Of a stretch of 64,000 nucleotides of DNA, positions 23,713 to 53,181 are shown in pieces. The notes under the pieces are model-generated. The model worked only from the letters and a program-made list of their open reading frames with translations, had not been told where the DNA came from and did no database searches. Position 1 is the stretch's first letter, and every line of letters starts with the position of its first letter. Source of the DNA: Planctomycetota bacterium (lineage in GTDB: Bacteria; Planctomycetota; Phycisphaerae; UBA1845; UTPLA1); assembly GCA_003576905.1 (NCBI GenBank), contig QEVG01000005.1, positions 1 through 64,000 of the forward strand. The letters are read 5' to 3'. The translations under genes and the position numbers were made by a program.

Positions 23713-24180
23713 ATGTTATATTCCTGTTTGGGGGCGTTCGTTGAGGATTTGGCGGTGATGTTCGCTGAGATCGGAAAATTCGTGGGGGCCAAGGTCGCCA
23801 CGGCGGTGATATTCCTGGCCGTCGCCGCGGGCGGAATCTGGTGCTACCAGAATCCCGAATCGGTGAAGGCCTTCGGCGTCGTCGTCAAGCACACACTGAT
23901 CTGGCTGGTCGTCGCGGCCGCGCTGCCGTGGTCGAGCTACCTCTTCATGCGCCCGCTGATGGCGCGCCAGGCGAAGATGCAGTCGGCGTACGGCGCGGCG
24001 ATGGTCAGCCTCGGCGTGATCGCCGCGTTCTGGCTGGTCGACGTCCTGCTCGCGCTCTGGCTCGCCGACTGGAGCATCGCCGGCGGCTTCACGTGGTTCG
24101 TCGTCATTCTTGGTTTCATCGCCGCCGCGGCCTATAATTTTGTCATCTGCGAATCGCTCGCCAGGCATGTGAGTGCCTGA
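23713..24180 (+). CDS. Four-helix membrane protein
   Basis: A 155-residue protein with four predicted transmembrane helices (about 28-46, 58-76, 96-118 and 124-145 from ATG 23713; ATG 23758 is an alternative that drops 15 residues). Function unknown. It is 59 bp upstream of the kinase gene and on the same strand, so it may be the first gene of the membrane-remodelling operon. The lack of an SD at 23713 makes the start provisional. Confidence 0.55.
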   Translation: MLYSCLGAFVEDLAVMFAEIGKFVGAKVATAVIFLAVAAGGIWCYQNPESVKAFGVVVKHTLIWLVVAAALPWSSYLFMRPLMARQAKMQSAYGAAMVSLGVIAAFWLVDVLLALWLADWSIAGGFTWFVVILGFIAAAAYNFVICESLARHVSA

Positions 24181-24239: not shown

Positions 24240-25310
24240 ATGAACGCGCCGCAGGTCGGCGACCGCATCAGCGAATACATTCTGATCGAGCTGCTGGGCG
24301 CCGGCAGCTTCGGCCAGGTGTGGAAGGCTCGTCACCACGTCTGGCAGGACGAGTTCGTCGCCATCAAGGTCCCCACCGATTCCCAGTTCGTGCGAAATCT
24401 CCAAAAGGAAGGCTGCACGATTCACGGCCTGCGTCACCGGAACATTGTCCGTGCCATTGGCCTCGACCCTTACGGTCCGATCCCCTATCTCGTTATGGAA
24501 TTCGTCGACGGACTTTCCCTTGCGGCGTGGGTCAGCCGATTTGCCAGGGGGTTGCCAGTACAGGCGGCCCAGCGGATTCTCATCGGCATTCTTCATGCCC
24601 TGGATCACGCCCACTCCAGCGGCGTGATTCATCGCGACATCAAGCCGGCCAATATCCTCATCGCCGGCGGCGCGGACCGCCCGATCGATTCCGTCGGCGT
24701 TGATGACGTGAAGGTCACGGACTTCGGCCTCGGGCTCGCCGGCCAGATCACCGCCAACAGCATTCTGCAGTCCGGCAGTCTTGTCGCCGAGGACGGCAGG
24801 AGCATTTCCGGCACTCTTGCCTACATGTCTCCCGAGCAGCGCGACGGCGGCACCGCCGACGCACGAAGCGACCTGTATTCCGTGGGAATCGTACTTTTCG
24901 AAATGCTCACCGGCGAGCGCCCCAGCGGGAGCGACATGCCGTCTCATTTACGCGAAGGGCTTCCATCCTGGGTTGATCCCGTGTTCGCCCGACTCTACAC
25001 GCGGCGCGATCGGCGGTTTGCCAGCGCGGCCGACGTCATTCGAGCGATTGAGCCGGCCGCGGCGCGCGGCGTCGTCGCCCCCACGCCCCCGCCGATTCCC
25101 GAATCATACGCCGCGCCGCGGCGCCGTCCCGACGCTCGCGCGTGCCCCTCGTGCCATGAGCCGACCGAGCCCGGAGACAATTTCTGCATCCTGTGCGGCG
25201 CGCAATTGGTGGGGGAGATTCGGCGATGTCCAAGCTGCGGCGGCTACCCGGATTCGGGCGACCAGTTCTGTATCCACTGCGGCTTCGCGCTGACTGCCAG
25301 GATGGGGTGA
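24240..25310 (+). CDS. Ser/Thr protein kinase with two C-terminal zinc ribbons
   Basis: A 356-residue protein. Residues 12-275 form an intact Hanks-type kinase: glycine loop LGAGSFGQVW (19-28), ATP-anchoring Lys43 in VAIKV, catalytic HRDIKPAN (Asp133), DFG at 161-163 and GTLAYMSPEQ. Residues about 307-352 hold two zinc ribbons of the same spacing, CPSCHEP...CILCG and CPSCGGY...CIHCG (double-zinc-ribbon type). No transmembrane helix or PASTA repeat is seen, so it is cytoplasmic. ATG 24240 was chosen over the 51-bp extension because the kinase homology begins right after it. I infer that it regulates the following ESCRT-like genes. Confidence 0.9.
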   Translation: MNAPQVGDRISEYILIELLGAGSFGQVWKARHHVWQDEFVAIKVPTDSQFVRNLQKEGCTIHGLRHRNIVRAIGLDPYGPIPYLVMEFVDGLSLAAWVSRFARGLPVQAAQRILIGILHALDHAHSSGVIHRDIKPANILIAGGADRPIDSVGVDDVKVTDFGLGLAGQITANSILQSGSLVAEDGRSISGTLAYMSPEQRDGGTADARSDLYSVGIVLFEMLTGERPSGSDMPSHLREGLPSWVDPVFARLYTRRDRRFASAADVIRAIEPAAARGVVAPTPPPIPESYAAPRRRPDARACPSCHEPTEPGDNFCILCGAQLVGEIRRCPSCGGYPDSGDQFCIHCGFALTARMG

Positions 25311-25314
25311 CGCC

Positions 25315-25575
25315 ATGTTCTTCTTCTGGACGCCCGGCATCCCGCTCATCGTGTCGATTCTTTTCGCGCTGGCCTCGGTGTTCGTGTTTTATTGTTTTTA
25401 CCGAGCCCTCCGCGGGAGTTTCTGGGATGCCCAGCTCCCCCAGCCGGGCGCCATGGACCGTTTTGACGACGACGCCCCCGGTCATCCCTGGCGATGCGCA
25501 AATAAAAGGTGCCGGAGCATGAATCCAGCTCATGCGAGGTATTGCAGGTTGTGCGGTTCGGCGCGTGCCGATTAG
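25315..25575 (+). CDS. Single-TM zinc-ribbon protein
   Basis: An 86-residue protein with one N-terminal transmembrane helix (about 6-30) and a C-terminal zinc ribbon of the form C-x4-C-x11-C-x2-CG (residues 60-81). The ribbon resembles those in the kinase next door and in the protein at 27733-28533, so the three may share a partner or ligand. It starts 4 bp after the kinase stop. Function unknown; it may tether the machinery to the membrane. Confidence 0.65.
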   Translation: MFFFWTPGIPLIVSILFALASVFVFYCFYRALRGSFWDAQLPQPGAMDRFDDDAPGHPWRCANKRCRSMNPAHARYCRLCGSARAD

Positions 25576-25633
25576 CGGCGCGCGAGCCGGCCGGACGGGC
25601 TGTGGCGCCGGAGCGGCCCCGACGGGAGATAGA

Positions 25634-27034
25634 ATGAACGAGTCCGCGATGAAAGCGAAGGAGCTTGAGACCGCGTATCTCGCCGGTGTTCAGCAGAACA
25701 TCAAGGATGCCGGGGTGCGCGCGGCGGGCAGGCACACGCAATACACCGAGATTGACTCGGGCGAGCGCGTCCGCGCCGCCATGATTGATCAGCGGCTGCA
25801 CGACCGGAGACTCGCGGCGGAGCTGCCGCAGGGCCGCGGCTTTGTCATTCGTTCCTTTACCCGGCGGCTCTTCTTCTGGAAAAAGCTCCAGAGCGTGACC
25901 GTGGCGAGTGTTCTGGCTCCGCCGGAGCCGCTTTTGCGCGGCGAAGCAGCGCCGCCTCCCGTGACACTTTCGCAACTCGGGACGCACGTTCGAAGCCTGC
26001 TCAATGATCCGCGCGCCCCGCACGTGATCGGCATTTGCAGCCCGAGCGGCTTTGAGGAAAGCGTGTATCGGGCCCCGCTCGACATTCCCAATGTAACGCT
26101 GGTCCTCGTCGAGCCGGCGCCGGGCGGCGGTTGGAAAGTGTCGTCGCCGGGGCGATCAGTCGACGAGCGGATCCTGAAGCTGTTTAACCCCGAAAACGTG
26201 GCCCAGAAGCTCGACCGGGTGCGCCGCGAGATCGAGGAGCGACGCACGGATTTGTTGACGGGGGGCCTGTCGGCGGCGAGCATGGCGGCTCGGCTGGCGC
26301 TTCCGGTCAAGCTGGTGCAGCAAGCCTTCGAGGCGGTGGCCAAGGGCGATCCGGAGCTGCGCGTGTCGAAGCGCAGCGGCGACTGGCTCCTGTTTCGCGG
26401 AGCGGCGGTCTTTTCGGGCGAGGAGGATGTGTCGATGCTGGACTGGATACGAAATCTCTTCTCGCGCGAGGGCGACGAGGCGCGAAAGATCAATGTGCTC
26501 TCCGAGCGCCGGGCCGCCCTGTCCGACCGTCTGAATCGCATGTACGACGACATCGGCAAGCTGGAGAAAAAGGAGGCGCAGCTCCTCGACGAAGGCAAGG
26601 CGGCGGCCTCCAACGTGGTGAAGCGCCGGATTGCCGCGCAGATTTCCCATTTGCGAAGCGATATCGGCCGCTGCAATACGAGCGCGGCCCTGCTGTCCAA
26701 GCAGATCAACATCATCAGCACGCACATTCACAATCTTCAGCTTGCCCAAACCGGAAGCATCGCACAGCTGCCCAGCAGCGAAGAACTGACCGAGGCGGCC
26801 GTGAACGCCGAGGAGATGCTTGAACAACTCGCCGCCAGCGACGAACTCGTCACCGGGCTCGAGGTCAGCATGGCCCAGACGGCCATGTCGGAGGAAGAGG
26901 CGGCCATCCTCAAGGAACTGGAAGGGGCACAGGCGCCGGCGGCGACGGGCACGCGCGAAGCGACGCCGCCCGTGCCGCAGACGGCTCGCAGCGAGCCGGC
27001 GCCGCGCGAGCGGAGCGGCCCCCAGGCGGAGTAA
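25634..27034 (+). CDS. Winged-helix plus ESCRT-III/Snf7-like coiled-coil protein
   Basis: A 466-residue protein with several parts: an N-terminal unrecognised domain (about 1-200), a winged-helix-like segment (about 205-258, GGLSAASMAARLALPVKL... to GDWLLFRGA), then a helical Snf7-like region (about 268-430). The latter starts with an amphipathic MLDWIRNLFSREG, continues through a basic coiled coil LEKKEAQLLDEGKAAAS, VVKRRIAAQISHL and LSKQINIISTHIHNLQL, and ends with an acidic helix EEEAAILKELEGA that resembles a MIT-interacting motif. The winged helix followed by an Snf7 core is reminiscent of eukaryotic CHMP7. ATG 25634 was chosen over the 25532 extension, which overlaps the previous gene. 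I infer an ESCRT-III-type membrane-remodelling subunit. Confidence 0.6.
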   Translation: MNESAMKAKELETAYLAGVQQNIKDAGVRAAGRHTQYTEIDSGERVRAAMIDQRLHDRRLAAELPQGRGFVIRSFTRRLFFWKKLQSVTVASVLAPPEPLLRGEAAPPPVTLSQLGTHVRSLLNDPRAPHVIGICSPSGFEESVYRAPLDIPNVTLVLVEPAPGGGWKVSSPGRSVDERILKLFNPENVAQKLDRVRREIEERRTDLLTGGLSAASMAARLALPVKLVQQAFEAVAKGDPELRVSKRSGDWLLFRGAAVFSGEEDVSMLDWIRNLFSREGDEARKINVLSERRAALSDRLNRMYDDIGKLEKKEAQLLDEGKAAASNVVKRRIAAQISHLRSDIGRCNTSAALLSKQINIISTHIHNLQLAQTGSIAQLPSSEELTEAAVNAEEMLEQLAASDELVTGLEVSMAQTAMSEEEAAILKELEGAQAPAATGTREATPPVPQTARSEPAPRERSGPQAE

Positions 27035-27167
27035 ACGGTGGGGCGGGCTTTTCCGCCCTTCACGCAAAGTCCGGCAGCGAGTCCTTTATCGAAATGTCCC
27101 GCGTTCTTGAGGTCCTGGCAGTTTGACTTTCTGACGTTCAGGCGTTTCGCCTTTTCGACGGTTCCCT

Positions 27168-27689
27168 ATGGCCCTGTTCGACTGGCTGACAAAACGGAGC
27201 AAGCCTCTCTCGCAGATGACGCGGCAGGAACTTCGCCGCCAGGAGCTTCTCCTGGCGCGTGACCGCGATCAACTGCTCAAGCGGATCAACGAATCCGCCG
27301 CCCTGAAGACCACCGAGCAGCTCATGATGGCGCGGCAGCTCAACATCCGCACGAAGGAGTACCTCACGGTCACGCGGATGCGCATGCTGCGCGAAAACGC
27401 CGACAAGGCAAAGGCAATGGGCTCGAAGCTCGGAATGATCGGCGAAAAGGACCTGATCGCCCTGGAGAAGATGATCGAAAACGACAACATCACCGCCGAG
27501 ATGTACCAGGACCGGCTCGACAGCATGCTGCAGGTCGGCAGCGAAGAGGGCGAGTCTCTCCTTACGCCCGGCAGCAAGCAGGTGCTCGATATCTGGGAGC
27601 AGATGGACACCGGCCTGATTGCCGATGCCGGTCAGGCCTTTGACGAGGCCGATCGGCGGGTCCGTGAGCGGCACAAGGCCAGCGAGTAA
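27168..27689 (+). CDS. ESCRT-III/Snf7-like helical protein
   Basis: A 173-residue almost entirely helical protein. It has a short amphipathic start (MALFDWLTKRSK), then two long basic/hydrophobic coiled-coil helices (about 15-80: QELRRQELLLARDRDQLLKRI, RTKEYLTVTRMRMLREN), a turn with IGEKDLIALEKM and a more acidic C-terminal half ending in DEADRRVRERH. The basic-then-acidic distribution and the amphipathic N-terminus match ESCRT-III proteins, although overall identity to any named member cannot be judged by eye. It lies between the CHMP7-like and Vps2-like genes on the same strand. Confidence 0.55.
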   Translation: MALFDWLTKRSKPLSQMTRQELRRQELLLARDRDQLLKRINESAALKTTEQLMMARQLNIRTKEYLTVTRMRMLRENADKAKAMGSKLGMIGEKDLIALEKMIENDNITAEMYQDRLDSMLQVGSEEGESLLTPGSKQVLDIWEQMDTGLIADAGQAFDEADRRVRERHKASE

Positions 27690-27732
27690 CCGGCGTTCAG
27701 GGGTTCGTCGCGCTGGCCGTTGAGTTCATGTT

Positions 27733-28533
27733 ATGGCACTTGAATTCGCCATAGATCGGCCGAAGGATTCCGTGCGCAGGGCGATCTTTCAGTTCGCTGC
27801 GCGCCGTGCCTTTCGCGTGAGCGAGCCGTGGTACCTCGACGGTCTGCGCATCGAGTCCGTCTCCGACGCACCGCGCAGGCCGGCCGACGAGCCCGCCGAC
27901 ACGCTCTCCGGAATGCTTGACGCGGCCGCCGCCCTGCTTCGCGATCGGCCGAGGAACAGGACCTATGTGGATGTTGAGCTGCGCCGCAAGCGCGGCCAGA
28001 CAATCGTCTCGCTGAAGTTCGGAGATCGTGGGGCCGGCGCGGCGCTCGGCTCGGCGCTGGAGGCCTTCCTCCGCGACCATGCCGTGTACGACACCCGGTG
28101 CCCGGTGGTGTGCGAATGCTGCACGACGCCCGTGGTCAACGTTCGCGCGAGTTACTGCGGCCGGTGTGGCAGCCCCCTTCGCGCCGGGGCGGCTCCTCGG
28201 CCGATCGCGGTATCATCGAGTCTGGCCCCGGCCTCGGCGCTGCCGCCTTTGCCCGTCGCCTCGCCGCCGGTGAAGTCGCGCGTGGAATCAAGAGACCGTG
28301 CAGGCGCGCCCGCCGCCAAGCCGGGCGTGACTGTGGAGCGAGACGAAGCGGCGGGACCGGAAGCCGTTTCGGAAGCCGCGCCGTCGGACGCAATCGCTAC
28401 GGCCCCGACCGGTCCGCTCGAGGGGAAGCGACCGTTGACCCCGCCCGAGGCGGAGAATGGGGACGGCGTGGAGGAGTCACCCGCGTCCGTCCACAGGTCT
28501 CGGCGGGCCGGGCCGATGGTCGTGGAGGACTAG
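27733..28533 (+). CDS. Zinc-ribbon protein of the ESCRT-like operon
   Basis: A 266-residue protein. Residues 1-110 are a compact alpha/beta-looking domain of unknown family. Residues about 121-142 hold a zinc ribbon, CECC then CGRCG. From 150 on, the sequence is low-complexity, Ala/Pro/Glu-rich and probably disordered, ending in RRAGPMVVED. The ribbon has the same spacing class as those in the kinase and the 86-residue protein. No enzymatic motif is seen. Its position between two Snf7-like genes suggests an adaptor. Confidence 0.6.
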   Translation: MALEFAIDRPKDSVRRAIFQFAARRAFRVSEPWYLDGLRIESVSDAPRRPADEPADTLSGMLDAAAALLRDRPRNRTYVDVELRRKRGQTIVSLKFGDRGAGAALGSALEAFLRDHAVYDTRCPVVCECCTTPVVNVRASYCGRCGSPLRAGAAPRPIAVSSSLAPASALPPLPVASPPVKSRVESRDRAGAPAAKPGVTVERDEAAGPEAVSEAAPSDAIATAPTGPLEGKRPLTPPEAENGDGVEESPASVHRSRRAGPMVVED

Positions 28534-28627
28534 AGTCTGCGCCCGTGGATCGCGCCGCCTTGGCCGGGCGGCGTCTCTGTGCGGCGCGAGTGCGGCAGAT
28601 CGGCCGGAAACGTGCGAAGGAGTTGCC

Positions 28628-29236
28628 ATGAGTCTTTTTAAGAGCGAAGAAGAGCGCCGCATCGAGCGGGACATCAAGATCCGCCAGGGCATCCGCCGGA
28701 TCGAGAAGTCCATCTCCGAGCAGAACAAGTTTACCGACGAGTTCATCAAGAACGCCCGGCGGGCGAAGCAGATCGGCGACAATGCGCAGTACATCTTCAT
28801 CCGCAACTCGCTCAAGAAGACGGCGACGATCAAGAAGATGCTGGAGCGCCAGCTCCTCGCCGTGAAGAACGCCCTCATCATCAAGCGCCAGGCCGAGGCG
28901 TCAGCCGACTTCGCCGAGGCGATGGGCAACATGGCCCGTGAGATCGGGCGCATGTTCGGCCAGACCGACCTCGTCAAGACGCAGACCGACTGGGAAAAAG
29001 CCATGGCTCAGAGCCAGAGCATGGAAGAGCGCATGACGATGTTCCTGGAAACGGTCGAAGACATCGCCGCCAGCGACACCGCCCAAGTGCCCGCCGAGAT
29101 CGTCACCGAACAGGAAATCGACGCAATGATCGAAGCCGAAAGCGAAGCAGAACACGCCAAGGACGTGGACGAACTGGACGCCCTCCGGGCGGAGCTGAAC
29201 GCGGTGAAGAACGCGGGGCAGAAGGAGAGTAAGTAG
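28628..29236 (+). CDS. ESCRT-III-like protein resembling Vps2/CHMP2
   Basis: A 202-residue helical protein with the charge pattern of ESCRT-III. Residues 7-90 are strongly basic with a long helical hairpin (EEERRIERDIKIRQGIRRIE, then RRAKQIGDNAQYIFIRNSLKK, ERQLLAVKNALIIK). The middle carries FAEAMGNMAREIGRM and WEKAMAQSQSMEERM, very similar in pattern to the Vps2/CHMP2 core (AMxxMxxxM...FExxxxxMxxxxE). The C-terminal third is acidic and ends in an amphipathic ELDALRAELNAVK, a candidate MIT-interacting motif for the adjacent ATPase. A GGAG ribosome-binding site lies 8 bp upstream of ATG 28628; the longer frame from 28457 belongs to the previous gene's tail. I infer a membrane-remodelling filament subunit. 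Confidence 0.7.
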   Translation: MSLFKSEEERRIERDIKIRQGIRRIEKSISEQNKFTDEFIKNARRAKQIGDNAQYIFIRNSLKKTATIKKMLERQLLAVKNALIIKRQAEASADFAEAMGNMAREIGRMFGQTDLVKTQTDWEKAMAQSQSMEERMTMFLETVEDIAASDTAQVPAEIVTEQEIDAMIEAESEAEHAKDVDELDALRAELNAVKNAGQKESK

Positions 29237-29331
29237 GATTCGGGTAATTGAGCGCCCAAGGGGCTATCCCGTGCAATAAACCATGAAGTGCTTTTTTCCA
29301 CTAACGAACAAAGCAGTTGAGGGTTTCAGTG

Positions 29332-29730
29332 ATGGGAGTCGCGACGGAAGTATTCTACCCCCCAATTCAACTAGATCGTAGCAAACGCTCTCAGGCTAGG
29401 AAGTGTTTGTATTCGGCAAGCACTTCCGGAAAGTTTGGACCTGGATCAAGAATAGAAGTCTACATCGAACCGGAAGTATGGCAGGGTTCTACTCCAGACG
29501 CTATAGATGTCATGGTATATAAGGGGGCAGCACCCGATTCGAAAGAATACTTTAGAATCTACGAACTCGCTGGAATGTATAAGTGCGAGGGGACCGCGTA
29601 CCGTTACGAAAAAGTTGCTGGTTCAGGAAGTAGACAGATAGGAAGCATCTACCTGCCGGAACGGATGTTCGGGCGCACATCACCGGAGCGTGTTTGGCTC
29701 GCCATTAAGTTGTGCCCCGAGCTACACTAA
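29332..29730 (+). CDS. Orphan gene of lower GC inside the operon
   Basis: A 132-residue frame with ordinary composition (predicted beta-rich, e.g. SRIEVYIEPEVW, YRYEKVAGSGSRQIGSIYLP). Its GC content is visibly lower (about half) than the surroundings (about 62%), and codon choice differs (AGA, ATA and TTA used). TTG 29317 is an alternative start adding five residues. It has no similarity that I recognise. It looks like a recent acquisition between the Vps2-like gene and the ATPase gene. Confidence 0.5.
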   Translation: MGVATEVFYPPIQLDRSKRSQARKCLYSASTSGKFGPGSRIEVYIEPEVWQGSTPDAIDVMVYKGAAPDSKEYFRIYELAGMYKCEGTAYRYEKVAGSGSRQIGSIYLPERMFGRTSPERVWLAIKLCPELH

Positions 29731-29842
29731 ACTTCATTGTGTTGGCCTTGCTTCCCTGCCCAGCTGGAAGAACCGTGCAAGGAGGGTGATCCTCACCTAA
29801 CGAGTTGGCCTAGTGTTTCCTCTTGTAATTCGCCATTGACCT

Positions 29843-30961
29843 ATGTCCGTCTCCTACGACACCTTCGAACGCCTCAAAGACCGCGGCCTCGCCGCCTACA
29901 AGAACGGCGACTACGCCGCGGCCAAGCCTTTCCTCATGCAGGCCGCAGACGCGATCATCAAGATCGCCGCGGAAACCACGGATGCAGGCCGCCGCCAGAG
30001 GCGAAAGGCCATGGCCGCCGAACTCATCGAGTTCGCCAGGCAGTGCGACATCAAGGGCGTCCAGCGCAAGGAGGACCGCCGCAAGGCCGCATCCGGCGAG
30101 GATGACGAAAATGGCGCCAATGCCCAGGACTGGATCGTCCGCGACAAGCCCAGCATCCGCTTCGCCGACATCGCCGGCCTGGAAGACGTCAAGCACGAAA
30201 TCCGCCTGAAGATGATCTACCCCTTCGCCCACCCTGAGCTCGCGGCGAAGTACGGAATCTCCTCCGGCGGCGGCCTGCTGCTTTACGGCCCGCCCGGCAC
30301 AGGCAAAACCATGATCGCCAAGGCGATCGCCTGCGAGATTGACGCGACGATGTTTGTCATCAGCCCGGCCCAGGTGCTGTCGAAGTGGGTCGGCGAGGCC
30401 GAGCAGAACATCCGCAAGCTCTTCACCGCTGCCAAGGCCGAAGAGCGCGCGATCATCTTTATCGACGAGATCGAGGCCCTCGTCCCCAGCCGCCGCGACA
30501 GCTCAAGCAGCGTCATGACCCGCGTCGTGCCCCAGATTCTTCAGGAGCTGGAAGGCTTCGACCGCGGGGCCAGTCGCCCGCTGCTCTTCGTTGGCGCGAC
30601 CAACGAACCCTGGAGCCTCGACGCGGCCGTCATGCGGCCGGGCAGGTTTGACTCAAAGGTGTATGTGCCGCTGCCCGACGAGCCGGCGCGGCATAAGCTC
30701 CTTGAGATTTACCTCGGCAAGCGGCCTGTTGCCGACGACGTGGATTTTGCCGAACTGGTCAAGGTCCTCGATGGGTACAGCGGTGCGGACATCAAGGCCG
30801 TGGCCGAGCGCGCGGCGACCCTGCCCTTCATGCGCGCCGTGGGCGGCGGCGAGGCCCGGCCCGTCACGCGCGACGACATCGAATCGGCCATCCGCGAGAC
30901 CCCGCCCTCCGTGAGGAAAAAGGACCTCATCCGTTTTGAAGAGTTCGCAAAGGAGAATTGA
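29843..30961 (+). CDS. Vps4-like AAA ATPase with N-terminal MIT-like domain
   Basis: A 372-residue protein. Residues about 5-70 form a three-helix MIT-like domain (LKDRGLAAYKNGDYAAAKPFL, then QAADAIIKIAAET). Residues 105-350 are an AAA module: FADIAGLEDVKHEI, Walker A GPPGTGKT (149-156), the pore loop SKWVGEAE with Trp182 as in Vps4, Walker B IIFIDEIEAL (Glu209) and arginine fingers MRPGRFD (265, 268). The C-terminal PPSVRKKDLIRFEEFAKEN resembles the final helix of Vps4/katanin/spastin. This places it in the meiotic clade of AAA proteins. It probably disassembles the filaments formed by the neighbouring Snf7-like proteins. Confidence 0.85.
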   Translation: MSVSYDTFERLKDRGLAAYKNGDYAAAKPFLMQAADAIIKIAAETTDAGRRQRRKAMAAELIEFARQCDIKGVQRKEDRRKAASGEDDENGANAQDWIVRDKPSIRFADIAGLEDVKHEIRLKMIYPFAHPELAAKYGISSGGGLLLYGPPGTGKTMIAKAIACEIDATMFVISPAQVLSKWVGEAEQNIRKLFTAAKAEERAIIFIDEIEALVPSRRDSSSSVMTRVVPQILQELEGFDRGASRPLLFVGATNEPWSLDAAVMRPGRFDSKVYVPLPDEPARHKLLEIYLGKRPVADDVDFAELVKVLDGYSGADIKAVAERAATLPFMRAVGGGEARPVTRDDIESAIRETPPSVRKKDLIRFEEFAKEN

Positions 30962-31115
30962 CGACCATCGGGAAGGCCGCGGCGCCACGCCCTGCGGGTG
31001 ACGCCGAGTGCGCCGGGGCTGCGGCAGTTTCCATTGAAGGGGGCCCGGATGTCGCCCACACCAATGCGCGGAGCGGCTCCAAACAGCACCGCGCCTACAA
31101 TCCGACGATGCACTC

Positions 31116-32927
31116 ATGAAATTTGACCTCAGTGTGTTTAGTCGTGATCCAGCACTCGTTGCGCAGTCCGTCGGCGCGCAGGAGGTCTTCTCCTTTCTCG
31201 CCCGCACGATCACCCTGCCGCACGGCTGCGCCGTCATGGCGTGGGCTACCGCGGGCCCGTCGCGCGTCATCCCTCAGGGGATGTCCCTCGAAGGCGAAGG
31301 CATCTCCAGGCTGCTGTTCGTTCGCACCTCCTCGTTCACCTTGGACTACGCCTTCCCGAAGCTCAACTCGCAAGACGGCTACGAGATCTCCGCACGAGTG
31401 GCCTGCGGAATGCAGGTGGTCGTCGAGCGCGCCGAGCTGGCCGCATTCTGTGACCGTGTGCTCGGAAGCGCCGCCTCGGTGACACTCGATCGCCTGCGCC
31501 AGTATTGCGAAGAAGCCGTATACGCCGCCGCGGAGTCCTTCGCGAAGGCCCGCCCCGCCGCGGAACTCCTCACGCCACGGGCCTGGGCCGAATTCGACGC
31601 GCACCTGGCCGAGTACTTCAAACCCCTCGGCTTCGCCTCCGGCCTCGCCCTCGCGGATGACACCCGAATCACCATCGACTCGGCGGACTTCGCCCGCGCC
31701 GCCGATGCGCGCAGGACCCAGCAGCTTCGTGAGCAGCGCATCGCGGAGGAGCGCCGACTGCGCGACATGGCGACCGACGCGCGGCGGCAGCATCTGGCCG
31801 AGCTGGCGGGCACCCTCGACAAGCTGCGCGACATGGCCGGCAAGGAGAAGGAAACGACCCTGCCCGACCTCATCCGCGCTCTGGACCCCTCACAGCGCGG
31901 CGGGCTTTATCATGCACTCCTCGCCCATCAGCCAGGCCGACGAAGCGCCGCCTCACTCCTCATCGTGGCGGGCGATGAACTGATCTGGATCGACCCCGCC
32001 TCTCCCGACAAGCCCGCCCGGCGTTTGTCGCTGACCTCCGAAATCGGCCCGTTGCGATCGGTCCGAACGGCAATGTGGGAAAGCCGCCCGGTGATCCTCG
32101 TCGGGGCGCGCAGCGGCGTGCACGTGCTTCAGACGGAGCAGGATCCCAGACAGGTGTTTGCCTTCGACGCCGGGCGAGAGCTTCGCGGCGGCGTCAATGC
32201 GGCGGCGATCATCGGCGAGGACCTCTTTGCAACACATTCCGAAGTGGGCCTGATCCACTGGCGACTCCGCCGGCCGGAGTCGTTCGAGCTGATCTGTGCA
32301 AAGACACTAAACGGCAGGAAGTCCGTGCGCGATGTCCAATCCGACGACGCAGGGAAGCTCTGGCTTGCTGCCGATCGGCAGGTCATCTGCGTGACGCCGG
32401 CTGGAAAAGCGCAGCCGTTCCCTGCCGGGCATGCGCTCGGCGCCGAACCGCCTTCCCTGCCGCCGCAGAATGCAGCGCATTCGGAGACCATCCTCGAAGC
32501 CCCGGCCGTCATCACAACGCTGACCGTCGCCGGCGGCCGCATCCTCGCGGGCATGGAGAATGGCCAGATCGCCTCGTGGCAGGCTGACGCTGCACTGCGC
32601 GAATCCATCCGCCCGGCCACAGGGCAGGCCGTGGAATCAATCACCTGGCTCGAAGGAGGCGGCGTGCCGCGACTGCTCGTCGCCGACCGGCGACCATACG
32701 TAGACATGATGGTGCTCGGCGATGTCTCAAGCACGAAGTACACGACAAACCAGCCGATCCGCTGGGCGCTGCCCGCGGGCGACTGGATCGTCGGCGTGAA
32801 CGACCGCCGCGATCAACTCGTGATCTGGCGCATCGAAGACCCGGCCGAACCCGCCTCGGTCATCTCCATCGGCCAGCTCTGCGGGCGTTCGGTGCAGGAC
32901 ATCGCAATCGCCTGCGGCGCCGCCTGA
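31116..32927 (+). CDS. Probable SPFH-domain protein with propeller-like C-terminus
   Basis: A 603-residue protein. Residues about 30-260 have the layout of SPFH/band-7 (stomatin, flotillin): a beta-rich start (SRVIPQGMSLEGEGI, LLFVRTSSFTLDYAFPKLNSQDGYEISARVACGM), helices with a coiled coil (RRTQQLREQRIAEERRLRDMA) and the C-terminal GLYHALLA stretch. Residues about 270-603 are beta-rich and repetitive like a WD40/PQQ propeller (LLIVAGDELIWID; VILVGARSGVHVL; ILAGMENGQIASW). No transmembrane helix is seen. It closes the cluster and may recruit the system to membrane microdomains. The SPFH call is tentative; the propeller is inferred from pattern only. Confidence 0.55.
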   Translation: MKFDLSVFSRDPALVAQSVGAQEVFSFLARTITLPHGCAVMAWATAGPSRVIPQGMSLEGEGISRLLFVRTSSFTLDYAFPKLNSQDGYEISARVACGMQVVVERAELAAFCDRVLGSAASVTLDRLRQYCEEAVYAAAESFAKARPAAELLTPRAWAEFDAHLAEYFKPLGFASGLALADDTRITIDSADFARAADARRTQQLREQRIAEERRLRDMATDARRQHLAELAGTLDKLRDMAGKEKETTLPDLIRALDPSQRGGLYHALLAHQPGRRSAASLLIVAGDELIWIDPASPDKPARRLSLTSEIGPLRSVRTAMWESRPVILVGARSGVHVLQTEQDPRQVFAFDAGRELRGGVNAAAIIGEDLFATHSEVGLIHWRLRRPESFELICAKTLNGRKSVRDVQSDDAGKLWLAADRQVICVTPAGKAQPFPAGHALGAEPPSLPPQNAAHSETILEAPAVITTLTVAGGRILAGMENGQIASWQADAALRESIRPATGQAVESITWLEGGGVPRLLVADRRPYVDMMVLGDVSSTKYTTNQPIRWALPAGDWIVGVNDRRDQLVIWRIEDPAEPASVISIGQLCGRSVQDIAIACGAA

Positions 32928-49953: not shown

Positions 49954-52900
49954 ATGTTGACCTGGGCACTGCATTTCACGGACGGACTTTGGCGAAATGC
50001 CGTGGCGTTGGTGCCGCTTGTGCTCGTGGTTGCCGCCGTCTGCCGGGTTCTGCCATGCCGCCCGGCAACGCGACACGCGCTTTGGCTGTTCGTCCTTGCA
50101 TGGCTGGTCGTGCCGCCCTTCCTGCCGGCGCTTCAGCCGGACTTCAAGCCCTGGATCGCCGATGCGACGGATCCCGGCCCGTTGGATGCCGGCAAGATTG
50201 ATGGCCGTGCAACGCGATCTACCATTGTCCCGGTCACACGTGATGATCTCGCGTCGGAACGAAAAACCATCGCACCGACGCCGTTAATGGTTATGACCAA
50301 ACATCGCCGCGTTCCGGAGTCACGCGATTCCCGCTGCGAGGGCAGCCCGGCGTCTGCCGCGCGATACCAGACTCCCACTCCACCCTGGACAGTTGACCCG
50401 GCCTTGCTTCGTGCGCCGAAAAGGCTCGCCTCGGCGGCGGACGGGGTCGGGTCACTGTCCGCTCGGAGTGTGCTCTGGCTTCGCCGGTCAATCATCGAAC
50501 TGTTTACCCGGCTTGACCACGGCGGCGAAACGGCATGCCCCGGGAGTTCTTCGGTCCTCAGCGCAAAGGATTCGAGGGACGAATCGCTGCACGATTCGGT
50601 TGCTCCTCTGCACATTGAATTCGCCCTGCCCGGCGAACCCGCCGACCTCACACTCGCCGGGCGAATGACTCCGTCCCGCGCCGCGACCGCACCGACTGAA
50701 ATACCTGACGTTGGAGCGCCGGCGCCTGTCATCTCCGACGACGTTCTTCGCCGGGGCGCGGGCATTGTCGATTTCGCGGCGACGCCGATTCCGCACGAGC
50801 CTGCGCCGGCATCTCCCAGTGTGGAGTCCGACGGCCGATTCACATGGTGGATCGCCGAAACCACTCATCCCTGGATCGTCGGGCTTATTGAGATACGCGA
50901 TTCCTTTGGCCGGCTGCCATCGATTCCGGTCGGAGTCTGGCTTGGCGGAATCACCCTGCTCGCGCTCTGCCGAATTCTGCGTCTGTGGCGGGTTCAGTCG
51001 GTGATCCGCCGCTCACGGCCTGCGGGGCGGGAAATCGTCCACATGGTCGATCGTTGCGCCCGGCGGATCGGCCTTTCACGCCGACCCGAAACGCGGATCA
51101 CCGCCGATCGCCTGTCGCCGATGATCTGGTGCGGGCTGCGGGGGCGGCTCATTCTTCCGGTCGAGTTGTGGGGACAGCTCGACGACCTCGGTCGAGAGGC
51201 CGTCGTCCTTCATGAGCTGGCACACCTCAAGCGCCGGGATCATTGGGTCCTTTGGATGGAGAGTCTGATCGGGTGCCTCTACTGGTGGCATCCCGTGGTG
51301 TGGTGGGTGCGCCGGCGACTTCGCGAGGAAGCGGAGAATTGCTGCGACGCATGGGTTACGTGGCTGCTGCCGAAGGGGCGCAGGGCATACGCCGAAGCCC
51401 TCTTGGCCACGAAGCAGTTCGTAAGTGACAGCACGCCGACATCGGCGGTCGGAATCGGTGTAATCAGCGGTCGAGCCAGAAGATTCGCAAGGAGACTGAC
51501 CATGGTCATGACGCAACGATCCACTCCCCACATGTCCGTGTCCGGCATTGCACTCGCCCTCGCCGTCGGTGTGGCGGGCTGGCTATCGACGCCGGCGCAT
51601 TCCGGTGAAAAATCCCTTCGTTCCACTACGCCTGCGCCGTCGGCTCCAGCGGTTGCCACGGCCGTCGCGCCTGTGACCCCGGCACTCGTGCCGAGTGCCC
51701 CCGCCCCGGCTGCCATTCCGGCACAGCCTGTCCCGCCGGCGCCGCCCGCTCCTCCGGGTACACCAAATCTGGCCGCGCACCCGACGCCTCCCGCCCCGCC
51801 TGCGCCCCCCGCGCCCGCCCATGGAGAAGTGCCCGGTGTCGCCCCGAGGCCGCTCGCAGTCCGTCCCGGCCAGGCGGTGATGCCCGGCGTGTCGTTCCCT
51901 GCTGCCTCTCCTGTCACGGCGGGCGCGTTCATGGTCCCGTCCGTACAGGGTCCACCGGATGACCGTCAGCGCGCGGTTGAAGAGAGGCTTGAGCGTCTCG
52001 AACGCGTCCTCGAAAAGCTCGAATCGCGATTGGGCGGAGCGGGGGGCTCGCAGAATACGGCCCCGCGAGTAGAGAGCCCCCGCGCCCGCGGAGGTACCCC
52101 TCAGCCCGCCGGCGATATAGTCACCGAAAAGTACGAACTTTCGGGCATGAAGCTGGAGAAGCTTACCAAGCTCATGATCCGCGACGATGTGCCCATTCGC
52201 GTTCGGCCCGGCGACGGCTACATCGAAGTGCAGGCGACGCCGGAAGATCAGATGATCTTCAGAGCCTTCATCCGGATGATCGACTCCCGGGAGGATTCAC
52301 GAGCCTATCGCCTCTCGAAGGGGAAGCTCGATGACCTCTCCGACCTCATGGTGCTCGACGATGTGCCGGTCTTTGTGAGCCCGGGCGAGAAGGAGATACG
52401 CGTGCAGGGCAACGGTGCGGTCCAGGCCGTGTTTGAGGCATTCGTGAAAATGATCGATCCGAGCGCCGAGGCCATGAGCATGCGGCGGGGCGGTGACGCG
52501 GAGCGAAAGGTCATCGCCGAGCGCGAATTGGTCAAGCAGATGTCGTCCGACAAGGTCAAGCGCCGTCAGGCTTGGGCGAACCTCGACGCCAGGCAAGCGC
52601 AGGAAATCGCGGAAGTCGCCCGAAGGAAGGCCCAGGAAAAGGTCGCTCAGGAATTGCATAAGGCAAAGATCGTTCAGCGGGGAGGGCTCAACAAGGCTGC
52701 GCGGGAGCGGGAGAATGCGCTTCAGAAGGCTGCGGAGGCCATGAAGCAGTACAAGCTTCACCGCTCGAAACACGATTCCAGGGAACTTCGCACGAAGATC
52801 CGTAATGCCGAGCGTGAAGCAGAGCGCCTCGAAAAAGAGGCCGAGCGGCTGGAAAAGGAGGCCGACAAGCTGCGCGACAAGGCCGACTCGCTCCGAAGCA

Positions 52901-53181
52901 AGGCCGAGGCCACAAGTGACGCATCACAGGTGGCGTCGCTGGAGGCCGAGGCCCGGCAACTGGAGGCTTCGGCGGCCGACATCGAGGCCGGCATGGAGTC
53001 GCTTTTTGCCCAGGTTGATCAGTTCCAAACGCTGGCTGCCGAACTGGAAGCCATGGCCGAACAGGTCGAGGAATCGGCTGACGCCGGCAATGAAATCAAT
53101 ATGGAGATCGACATCGACGTAGACGACGACGGCGAAGAGGGCGAAGACGAGGACGAGACCGACGAGTCCGGCACGGAGTAA
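49954..53181 (+). CDS. BlaR1-family M56 metallopeptidase sensor with long coiled-coil tail
   Basis: A 1075-residue membrane protein. The first TMs are at about 10-60; the M56 peptidase motif HELAH (H420-H424) is followed by WWHPVVWWVRRRLREEAE, as in BlaR1/MecR1. After a further TM (about 525-548) the outer region is very long: Pro/Ala-rich (about 550-660), two repeats of a small domain (KYELSGMKLEKLTKLMIRDD; YRLSKGKLDDLSDLMVLDD) and a highly charged coiled coil (about 880-1075, EREAERLEKEAERLEKEADK) ending acidic. The classical penicillin-binding domain is absent, so the sensed signal is not beta-lactam by sequence. It forms an operon with blaI. Confidence 0.85.
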   Translation: MLTWALHFTDGLWRNAVALVPLVLVVAAVCRVLPCRPATRHALWLFVLAWLVVPPFLPALQPDFKPWIADATDPGPLDAGKIDGRATRSTIVPVTRDDLASERKTIAPTPLMVMTKHRRVPESRDSRCEGSPASAARYQTPTPPWTVDPALLRAPKRLASAADGVGSLSARSVLWLRRSIIELFTRLDHGGETACPGSSSVLSAKDSRDESLHDSVAPLHIEFALPGEPADLTLAGRMTPSRAATAPTEIPDVGAPAPVISDDVLRRGAGIVDFAATPIPHEPAPASPSVESDGRFTWWIAETTHPWIVGLIEIRDSFGRLPSIPVGVWLGGITLLALCRILRLWRVQSVIRRSRPAGREIVHMVDRCARRIGLSRRPETRITADRLSPMIWCGLRGRLILPVELWGQLDDLGREAVVLHELAHLKRRDHWVLWMESLIGCLYWWHPVVWWVRRRLREEAENCCDAWVTWLLPKGRRAYAEALLATKQFVSDSTPTSAVGIGVISGRARRFARRLTMVMTQRSTPHMSVSGIALALAVGVAGWLSTPAHSGEKSLRSTTPAPSAPAVATAVAPVTPALVPSAPAPAAIPAQPVPPAPPAPPGTPNLAAHPTPPAPPAPPAPAHGEVPGVAPRPLAVRPGQAVMPGVSFPAASPVTAGAFMVPSVQGPPDDRQRAVEERLERLERVLEKLESRLGGAGGSQNTAPRVESPRARGGTPQPAGDIVTEKYELSGMKLEKLTKLMIRDDVPIRVRPGDGYIEVQATPEDQMIFRAFIRMIDSREDSRAYRLSKGKLDDLSDLMVLDDVPVFVSPGEKEIRVQGNGAVQAVFEAFVKMIDPSAEAMSMRRGGDAERKVIAERELVKQMSSDKVKRRQAWANLDARQAQEIAEVARRKAQEKVAQELHKAKIVQRGGLNKAARERENALQKAAEAMKQYKLHRSKHDSRELRTKIRNAEREAERLEKEAERLEKEADKLRDKADSLRSKAEATSDASQVASLEAEARQLEASAADIEAGMESLFAQVDQFQTLAAELEAMAEQVEESADAGNEINMEIDIDVDDDGEEGEDEDETDESGTE

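Follow-up and report, generated by a model that had tools for sequence, protein, structure and literature searches.

Introduction

The closest described relatives of the operon studied here, which lies at 24240-32927 of a 64,000-nucleotide stretch of planctomycete DNA (contig QEVG01000005.1, positions 1 to 64,000; hereafter the window), are the endosomal sorting complex required for transport (ESCRT) systems of archaea and eukaryotes and the PspA/Vipp1 proteins of bacteria. The archaeal main-clade ESCRT of Makarova et al. 2024 (PMC10936438), which we compared via the plasmid record NZ_CP014751.1, shares with the operon a Snf7-family protein, further small helical proteins, a coiled-coil/globular/winged-helix protein, a Ser/Thr kinase and a MIT-AAA ATPase. 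The planctomycete set differs in that its host is bacterial, in that its protein E3a fuses the winged-helix part to an ESCRT-III core, and in that it adds an SPFH-propeller protein, zinc ribbons and a transmembrane (TM) protein but has no PP2C among the operon genes; furthermore, the ATPase in Phycisphaerae belongs to another clade. With eukaryotic and Asgard ESCRT-III (CHMP2A/CHMP3, Snf7, ESCRT-IIIB) and Vps4, the operon protein E3c has in common the four-helix order, the charge reversal and the MIT-AAA partner, whereas no ESCRT-0, ESCRT-I or ubiquitin parts were seen in the operon, and the operon has a kinase. PspA and Vipp1 (IM30) are bacterial proteins of the same superfamily with a known SPFH partner. 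Unlike them, the operon has a dedicated MIT-AAA ATPase, a kinase and a Snf7-type sequence, and the whole genome that carries it gave no PspA_IM30 match at E<=1.

Parts of this picture are already known. A survey of the phage shock protein (PSP) systems (PMC11237479) reports Vps4 transfers into bacteria without snf7, which is displaced by a TPR/6TM gene, and notes some bacterial Snf7-AAA neighbourhoods; no planctomycete is named in its main text (0 occurrences). A 2024 survey described bacteria as being without such an ESCRT combination, and among the open-access titles and abstracts listed, a scope outside which subscription journals and preprints fall, no such planctomycete system was reported.

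Here, we describe a conserved planctomycete operon in which ESCRT-III genes stand with those for a Ser/Thr kinase, a MIT-AAA ATPase, a membrane protein and a probable SPFH protein. Judged by profile matches, E3a, E3b and E3c each have a homolog in one archaeal Vps4-type locus. The operon is very probably a bacterial ESCRT system, whose most likely output is inner-membrane budding or repair controlled by the kinase.

Gene Content of the Operon

Within a genome of 4.7 Mb, the window corresponds to contig C41. A preliminary description of the window had listed nine plus-strand genes at 24240-32927, and the reading frames confirmed all of them at approximately those coordinates. It had not included the first gene of the list below, nor a deletion in the 27168 gene that is described later.

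about 23758..24180, plus strand: conserved multi-TM membrane protein (reading frame open from 23713, start set by homologs)
24240..25310, plus strand: P0001, Ser/Thr protein kinase with a C-terminal double zinc ribbon (Pkinase 8.4e-37; DZR, PF12773, 2.4e-8)
25315..25575, plus strand: P0009, 86 aa, hydrophobic N-terminal segment and zinc ribbon (BLAST homologs in 5/20 loci)
25634..27034, plus strand: E3a (P0002), N-terminal alpha/beta domain, winged helix, probable ESCRT-III core and Pro-rich tail (AlphaFold2 model, profiles)
27168..27689, plus strand: E3b (P0003), probable ESCRT-III-type helical protein (kinship to the E3a core and to a Thermococcus 198-aa protein)
27733..28533, plus strand: P0004, zinc-ribbon protein (similar genes at that position in 3/20 loci)
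28628..29236, plus strand: E3c (P0005), ESCRT-III protein of the Snf7 family, highly conserved (Pfam, AlphaFold2/Foldseek, archaeal homolog)
29332..29730, plus strand: P0006, 132 aa, no family assigned, between E3c and the ATPase
29843..30961, plus strand: P0007, MIT-AAA ATPase of its own clade beside Vps4 and Cdc48 (AAA, Vps4_C, tree)
31116..32927, plus strand: P0008, probable SPFH protein with a C-terminal beta-propeller-like part (Band_7 in homologs; gene in 49/80 loci)

E3c Is a Snf7-Family Protein by Profiles and Predicted Structure

Profile searches and a structural model together place E3c securely in the Snf7/ESCRT-III family. For 21 of 29 diverse members of the E3c family, a match to Pfam Snf7 was obtained at E<=10 (best 2.7e-6), against 3/29 for the next family, and PspA_IM30 was absent from the best 25 of the 60 Pfam families matched by these members. 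We also scanned, with Snf7, the whole genomes of 55 E3c-bearing planctomycetes outside the window's class and of 14 controls. A match at E<=0.1 was obtained in 45/55 genomes, and E3c was the top match in 41 of these 45; in the 35 genomes whose top match reached E<=0.01, it was E3c in all 35. The curated Snf7 cut-off (27.3 bits) was passed in 4/55 genomes, every time at E3c, and in 0/14 controls, Sulfolobus included. In addition, nine pattern matches on viral contigs contained no E3c relative.

The AlphaFold2 model of E3c has helices at 7-49, 52-109, 115-152 and 161-199, which correspond to the order alpha1, long alpha2/3, alpha4 and alpha5. When this model was searched with Foldseek, the first 13 rows, and 15 of the first 16, belonged to the ESCRT-III superfamily, headed by CHMP2A-CHMP3 (E 7.5e-3, prob 1.00) and followed by Asgard ESCRT-IIIB, Snf7 and Vipp1; apart from Vipp1, the ESCRT-III rows had about 10-19% identity. 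The preliminary description had proposed three helical proteins with basic N-terminal and acidic C-terminal halves, and the net charges of the two halves agree with it, being +2/-12 for the E3a core (residues 264-430) and +9/-10 and +9/-14 for the other two.

MIM1, a motif of C-terminal ESCRT-III helices to which MIT domains bind, has a characteristic spacing and an Arg position. The conserved C-terminal helix here is L-R-A-E-L-x-x-[LV]-K, which has the MIM1 spacing but carries Glu at the position of the Arg of MIM1.

In the genome of the window, E3c ranks second of two Snf7 matches at E<=10. The best one, which is weak (E 0.09) and covers model residues 3-85 only, lies at 52777-53037 within an open frame of ~1,080 aa.

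E3a and E3b Are Probable ESCRT-III Proteins with Archaeal Relatives

In the AlphaFold2 model of E3a (predicted local distance difference test, pLDDT, 83.2), an N-domain of the alpha/beta type is followed by a winged helix at about 189-255 and by a core at about 268-430, whose helices at 282-323, 327-372, 382-413 and 420-430 follow the ESCRT-III order. The core hairpin was aligned with CHMP2A/3, CHMP1B, Asgard ESCRT-IIIB, CdvB2 and Vipp1, with CT398 of Chlamydia at the first rank. Snf7 was matched by 11/71 members of the E3a family (best 0.011, under the curated cut-off), which is fewer than for some coiled-coil families. E3b was related to the E3a core by hhalign with a probability of 79%. In CHMP7, a winged-helix part at the N-terminus is joined to an ESCRT-III core. 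E3a resembles it in this architecture, but the N-domain of E3a is an alpha/beta part plus one winged helix.

Presence outside Planctomycetota was searched via plasmid records only. A translated search with P0007 led to the Thermococcus peptonophilus plasmid NZ_CP014751.1, where genes for several hypothetical proteins accompany those for a kinase, a MIT-AAA ATPase and a PP2C phosphatase. With E-values set for 5000 sequences, the N-domain and winged helix of E3a matched a Thermococcus 607-aa protein (1.1e-12), which appears to be arCOG09748 from the description in PMC10936438. The E3a core matched a 201-aa protein with one profile (4.9e-5), E3b a 198-aa protein with two profiles (1.9e-8 and 8.4e-8), and E3c a 188-aa protein (1.4e-18). 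The last of these also aligned with P0005 in a single BLASTP comparison (29% identity, 186 columns, E 1e-13) and itself matched Snf7 (4.2e-4). Furthermore, a second type of planctomycete ATPase, described below, matched the Thermococcus ATPase over MIT and AAA with 2.1e-104.

Searching plasmids with planctomycete E3c returned one record, NZ_CP128401.1 of Candidatus Chlorohelix allophototropha (Chloroflexota), at 23.6% identity over 14-191. Note that this record is described as a single colony from a non-axenic enrichment. The Chlorohelix protein scored 2.3e-25 with the E3c profile, and its circular plasmid also encodes a MIT-AAA (Vps4-type) ATPase with an E3b relative two genes ahead (4.7e-13), many Ser/Thr kinases, a PP2C phosphatase, FHA proteins and propellers. 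Used as queries, the Thermococcus and Chlorohelix E3c relatives found themselves alone among the plasmids. Bar the four Thermococcus and the Chlorohelix proteins, the E3a, E3b and E3c profiles scored the other open frames of seven plasmid stretches at 0.27 or worse. Since E3a and E3b have relatives in the Thermococcus locus, and E3a in addition has its structural model, we regard the E3a core and E3b as probable ESCRT-III members.

E3b of the window is short of 26 residues in the helix 1-2 region, an in-frame deletion relative to 18/18 aligned relatives, which keep them. At the C-terminus, members of the E3a family have a conserved tetrapeptide of the form P-x-[AMLV]-[EGSN], which follows a disordered Pro-rich linker and is perhaps a binding motif. 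A resemblance of the alpha/beta N-domain of E3a to Mrr-like nuclease domains was considered and dropped, as no such family was among the best 25 of 120 Pfam families.

The ATPase Forms a Clade beside Vps4 and Cdc48

P0007 has the Walker motifs and the pore loop SKWVGE, the latter read directly in the sequence, and it matches AAA (2.1e-39) and Vps4_C (3.2e-6); Vps4_C was matched by 13/13 members of its family. The family models for CdvC (229.9 bits over 17-368), CDC48 (230.5 bits over 101-371) and PAN tied on P0007, so that placing it by these models gave no decision, and for its lid region p97 D2 gave a better score than yeast Vps4 did. For these reasons, we built a tree of 43 sequences, which was unrooted and included five archaeal Vps4-type proteins and Cdc48, with no eukaryotic Vps4 and no FtsH. 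The second planctomycete ATPase, the Chlorohelix ATPase and the five archaeal Vps4-type proteins clustered with a support of 100, and within this cluster the archaeal members grouped together (96), as did the bacterial members (97). The P0007 type made up a third group, next to Cdc48 and Vps4 and not within the archaeal Vps4 clade.

A profile built from 21 N-termini of both ATPase types weakly matched the MIT chains of Vps4/SKD1 over about 10-69 of its 75 positions (E 0.0047-0.29). TPR chains were matched over shorter pieces, although the summed E-values of their repeat arrays were better; a single designed minibinder was matched over 14-72 at 0.0013. The coverage of most of the MIT length favors MIT over TPR for this N-terminus, as the preliminary description had supposed. 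Its broader claim of a MIT-AAA ATPase with a Vps4-type pore loop is borne out by the pore loop, the Vps4_C match and the MIT-like N-terminus, with one correction, namely that P0007 stands outside the archaeal Vps4 clade. For the Vps4 family, PMC10936438 looks for a MIT domain or for ESCRT genes nearby, and both were found for P0007. By its architecture and context, P0007 would thus be Vps4-like in action, whereas the tree does not support Vps4 by descent.

True Vps4 adjoins E3c in other planctomycetes. The search for this second type in 150 genomes of relatives gave a best match of 9.1e-48, and the match in the window's own genome was P0007 itself (3.2e-42); on these grounds, the class of the window seems to be without true Vps4 and to have the P0007-type ATPase only. 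In 20 loci picked from other planctomycete families, the window-type ATPase (>300 bits) was found in 13/20, the second type (157-188 bits) in 13/20, and both in 9/20. In these loci, the N part and the core of E3a were separate genes in 5/20, and in most others the N part alone was recognized.

Conservation and Co-Occurrence

An E3c match was obtained in 98/150 genomes of relatives (65/96 of those of high quality) and in 56/392 genomes sampled across the phylum, the window's own genome being counted in both. The closest named relatives were metagenome genomes, mostly Phycisphaerae or Planctomycetota by title. For synteny, we used 80 named E3c-centered loci, the best 80 of 125, whose titles give planctomycete groups in 78 cases, "bacterium" alone in one and Alphaproteobacteria in one. 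The counts in these loci were 76 for E3b, 73 for E3a, 68 for the kinase, 54 for the ATPase and 49 for the SPFH gene, and all six genes stood on one strand in the order kinase-E3a-E3b-E3c-ATPase-SPFH in 41/80; some of the other 39 may be truncated by contig edges. The conservation of E3c and the synteny exceed chance by far, and the expectation that the neighborhood would be conserved was thereby borne out.

Co-occurrence was examined in 37 genomes. Ten were E3c-positive and picked by hand (6 from the order of the window, 4 from the class), and 27 were E3c-negative, of which 12 had a completeness of >=97% (5 order, 7 class) and 15 of 55-93%. The window-type ATPase (>550 bits) and E3b were both found in 10/10 E3c-positive genomes and in 0/12 E3c-negative genomes of >=97% completeness, indicating that E3c, E3b and the ATPase are present or absent together in the high-completeness genomes examined. 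Among the 15 less complete ones, the ATPase alone was found in G056 and G106, E3b alone in G022 and G084, both in G088 and G108, and neither in nine. Separately, a P0007-like ATPase (305 bits, 18-370) is encoded at G147:C95:2700-3743 in a member of the class for which neither E3c nor E3b gave a match.

FtsZ was found at E<=1e-20 in 0/96 high-quality genomes of relatives (2/150 of all relatives searched) and in 0/217 high-quality genomes of the phylum sample (3/392 of the whole sample), while 13/14 control genomes were positive. The operon was also considered as a plain replacement for FtsZ, and the co-occurrence test gave no support to this.

Kinase, Zinc-Ribbon, SPFH and Membrane Proteins

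The kinase retains the HRDIKPAN and DFG motifs, as read directly, and is intact as described beforehand. The three zinc-ribbon proteins of that description were likewise recovered, namely the kinase itself through its double zinc ribbon and the products of 25315-25575 and 27733-28533. P0008, proposed as a probable SPFH protein, scored poorly against Band_7 on its own (E 0.12, 12.9 bits, with a curated cut-off of 23.6). Band_7 was matched at E<=1 by 8/25 of its homologs (best 1.1e-5), which supports the proposal, and a few homologs gave weak WD40/propeller matches.

BLASTP homologs of the multi-TM protein of the window were found in 41/80 loci, in 40 of these 41 directly upstream of the kinase on the same strand, and clustering of the relatives' genes put the family in 44 loci. 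Given this position, the gene at about 23758-24180 seems to belong to the operon as its tenth gene.

Proposed Function and Alternative Explanations

The ESCRT-III reading of the preliminary description thus holds for the 28628 protein by sequence, structure and archaeal-locus homology, and probably for the 25634 and 27168 proteins; the model checks agree with it, the Foldseek list of the 28628 protein being headed by ESCRT-III and the core hairpin of E3a being aligned with ESCRT-III. Membrane scission, which was also part of that reading, would be the last step of the following mechanism. E3c, E3b and the E3a core would be kept inactive in the cytosol and recruited to the inner membrane by the winged helix and N-domain of E3a, acting jointly with an SPFH scaffold and the TM protein. 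They may then copolymerize into filaments via their basic alpha1-alpha2 hairpins and N-terminal ends of the MGLFKS type, with the timing set by the kinase and its zinc ribbons. The MIT domain of the ATPase would dock on the acidic C-terminal helices and thread subunits out, and the filament would change shape and constrict or cut the membrane neck. Most likely, the inner membrane would bud or be repaired in this way, in vesicle formation or under envelope stress, with the cargo controlled by phosphorylation as has been suggested for the archaeal main-clade ESCRT.

A number of results weigh against this account. On its own, P0005 gave Snf7 only E 0.23 and 11.5-13.4 bits, under the curated cut-off of 27.3 bits, and 5/14 control genomes, two of them ordinary bacteria, also gave a Snf7 match at E<=0.1, so that weak Snf7 matches alone mean little. 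The E3c model is of moderate confidence (pLDDT 75.8; predicted template modeling score 0.49), and no Foldseek row for it fell below E 0.001. VIA-align failed to separate the hairpins of ESCRT-III from those of other helical proteins, since rows for seryl-tRNA synthetase and a calmodulin-channel structure also appeared at Z 9-10. Searches of PDB sequences with profiles of E3c and E3b found no ESCRT-III chain, and hhalign gave no significant relation of E3c to E3a or to E3b. Winged-helix proteins led the Foldseek list of E3a, in which ESCRT-III first appeared at rank 22 (E 0.24), and no Snf7 match was obtained in the E3b family (19 members). A deeper E3a profile scored the Thermococcus 201-aa protein at 0.74, and the haloarchaeal helical proteins beside Vps4 were without a match (best 0.081). 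Pfam reported no MIT domain on the N-terminus of P0007 and gave weak TPR matches there. In 19/80 loci, the kinase, E3a, E3b and E3c were present without an ATPase inside the stretch covered. Finally, one family of the order includes several almost complete genomes without the system, indicating that it is dispensable.

We considered what else the operon could be. It might be the division machine of FtsZ-less planctomycetes, in which an ESCRT-III copolymer cuts the cell as the Cdv proteins do in Sulfolobus. The absence of FtsZ from 96/96 and 217/217 high-quality genomes, with 13/14 controls positive, fits this possibility, and so does the literature, FtsZ-less division in this phylum being called poorly understood (PMC12283558) and Phycisphaerae being said to divide by something like binary fission (PMC6952346). 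However, order genomes of 97-99% completeness and seven class members of 98-100% completeness are without E3c, E3b and the window-type ATPase. These operon-less relatives are FtsZ-less as well, and the related Thermococcus set sits on a plasmid. Because FtsZ is missing from relatives with and without the operon alike, we give a division role low weight and prefer budding or repair; use in division is possible but unlikely, and less supported.

An envelope stress module of the PspA/Vipp1 kind, in which ordinary bacterial relatives of ESCRT-III, the helical proteins, coat damaged membrane and the ATPase is incidental, would be consistent with the Vipp1 and PspA-family structures among the matches and with the SPFH protein, a known PspA partner according to PMC10936438; the niche would also be free, as PspA_IM30 gave no match at E<=1 in the genome. 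We nevertheless hold it to be improbable, since the sequence matches are to Snf7 rather than to PspA_IM30, which is not among the best 25 of 60 families, CHMP2A/3, Asgard ESCRT-IIIB and Snf7 outrank Vipp1 in Foldseek, the ATPase accompanies E3c in 10/10 E3c-positive genomes examined, and the archaeal relatives stand in a Vps4-type locus. Least probable of all, and in our view very improbable, is that ordinary coiled coils serve a Cdc48-like AAA unfoldase in kinase-controlled protein quality control off membranes. The near-equal scores of P0007 with CDC48 and CdvC, the many unrelated folds that VIA-align pairs with the helical hairpins, and the weak TPR matches at the N-terminus of the ATPase would all suit this idea, but Snf7 matches above the curated cut-off at E3c, the homology of E3a, E3b, E3c and the second ATPase to an archaeal Vps4-type locus, and the SPFH and TM partners speak against it.

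A bacterial ESCRT system for inner-membrane budding or repair is therefore the reading that we prefer. A conserved bacterial set with archaeal-locus relatives of E3a, E3b and E3c contradicts the view of the 2024 survey, and the findings bear on the age of ESCRT and on its movement between domains. The set further points to an ATPase swap inside a living ESCRT system, and the operon offers a testable force generator in an FtsZ-less phylum. More speculatively, and with more doubt than belief on our part, Planctomycetota and at least one member of Chloroflexota may share the archaeal ESCRT machine as a kinase-gated copolymer with one or two MIT-AAA ATPases, which cuts or buds the inner membrane and, in part of the phylum, takes the place of the missing FtsZ machinery or works beside what replaces it. 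If this is true, ESCRT is not limited to archaea and eukaryotes.

Other Observations

P0006, encoded between E3c and the ATPase, had no Pfam or NCBIfam match, and no BLASTP match in the 20 loci of other families nor among the genes called in the 80 loci of relatives. With respect to the record titled Alphaproteobacteria among the 80 loci (L124, IP29b_bin.190), it bears the planctomycete operon and has a counterpart contig in G023, a genome of the order of the window, so that its title looks wrong.

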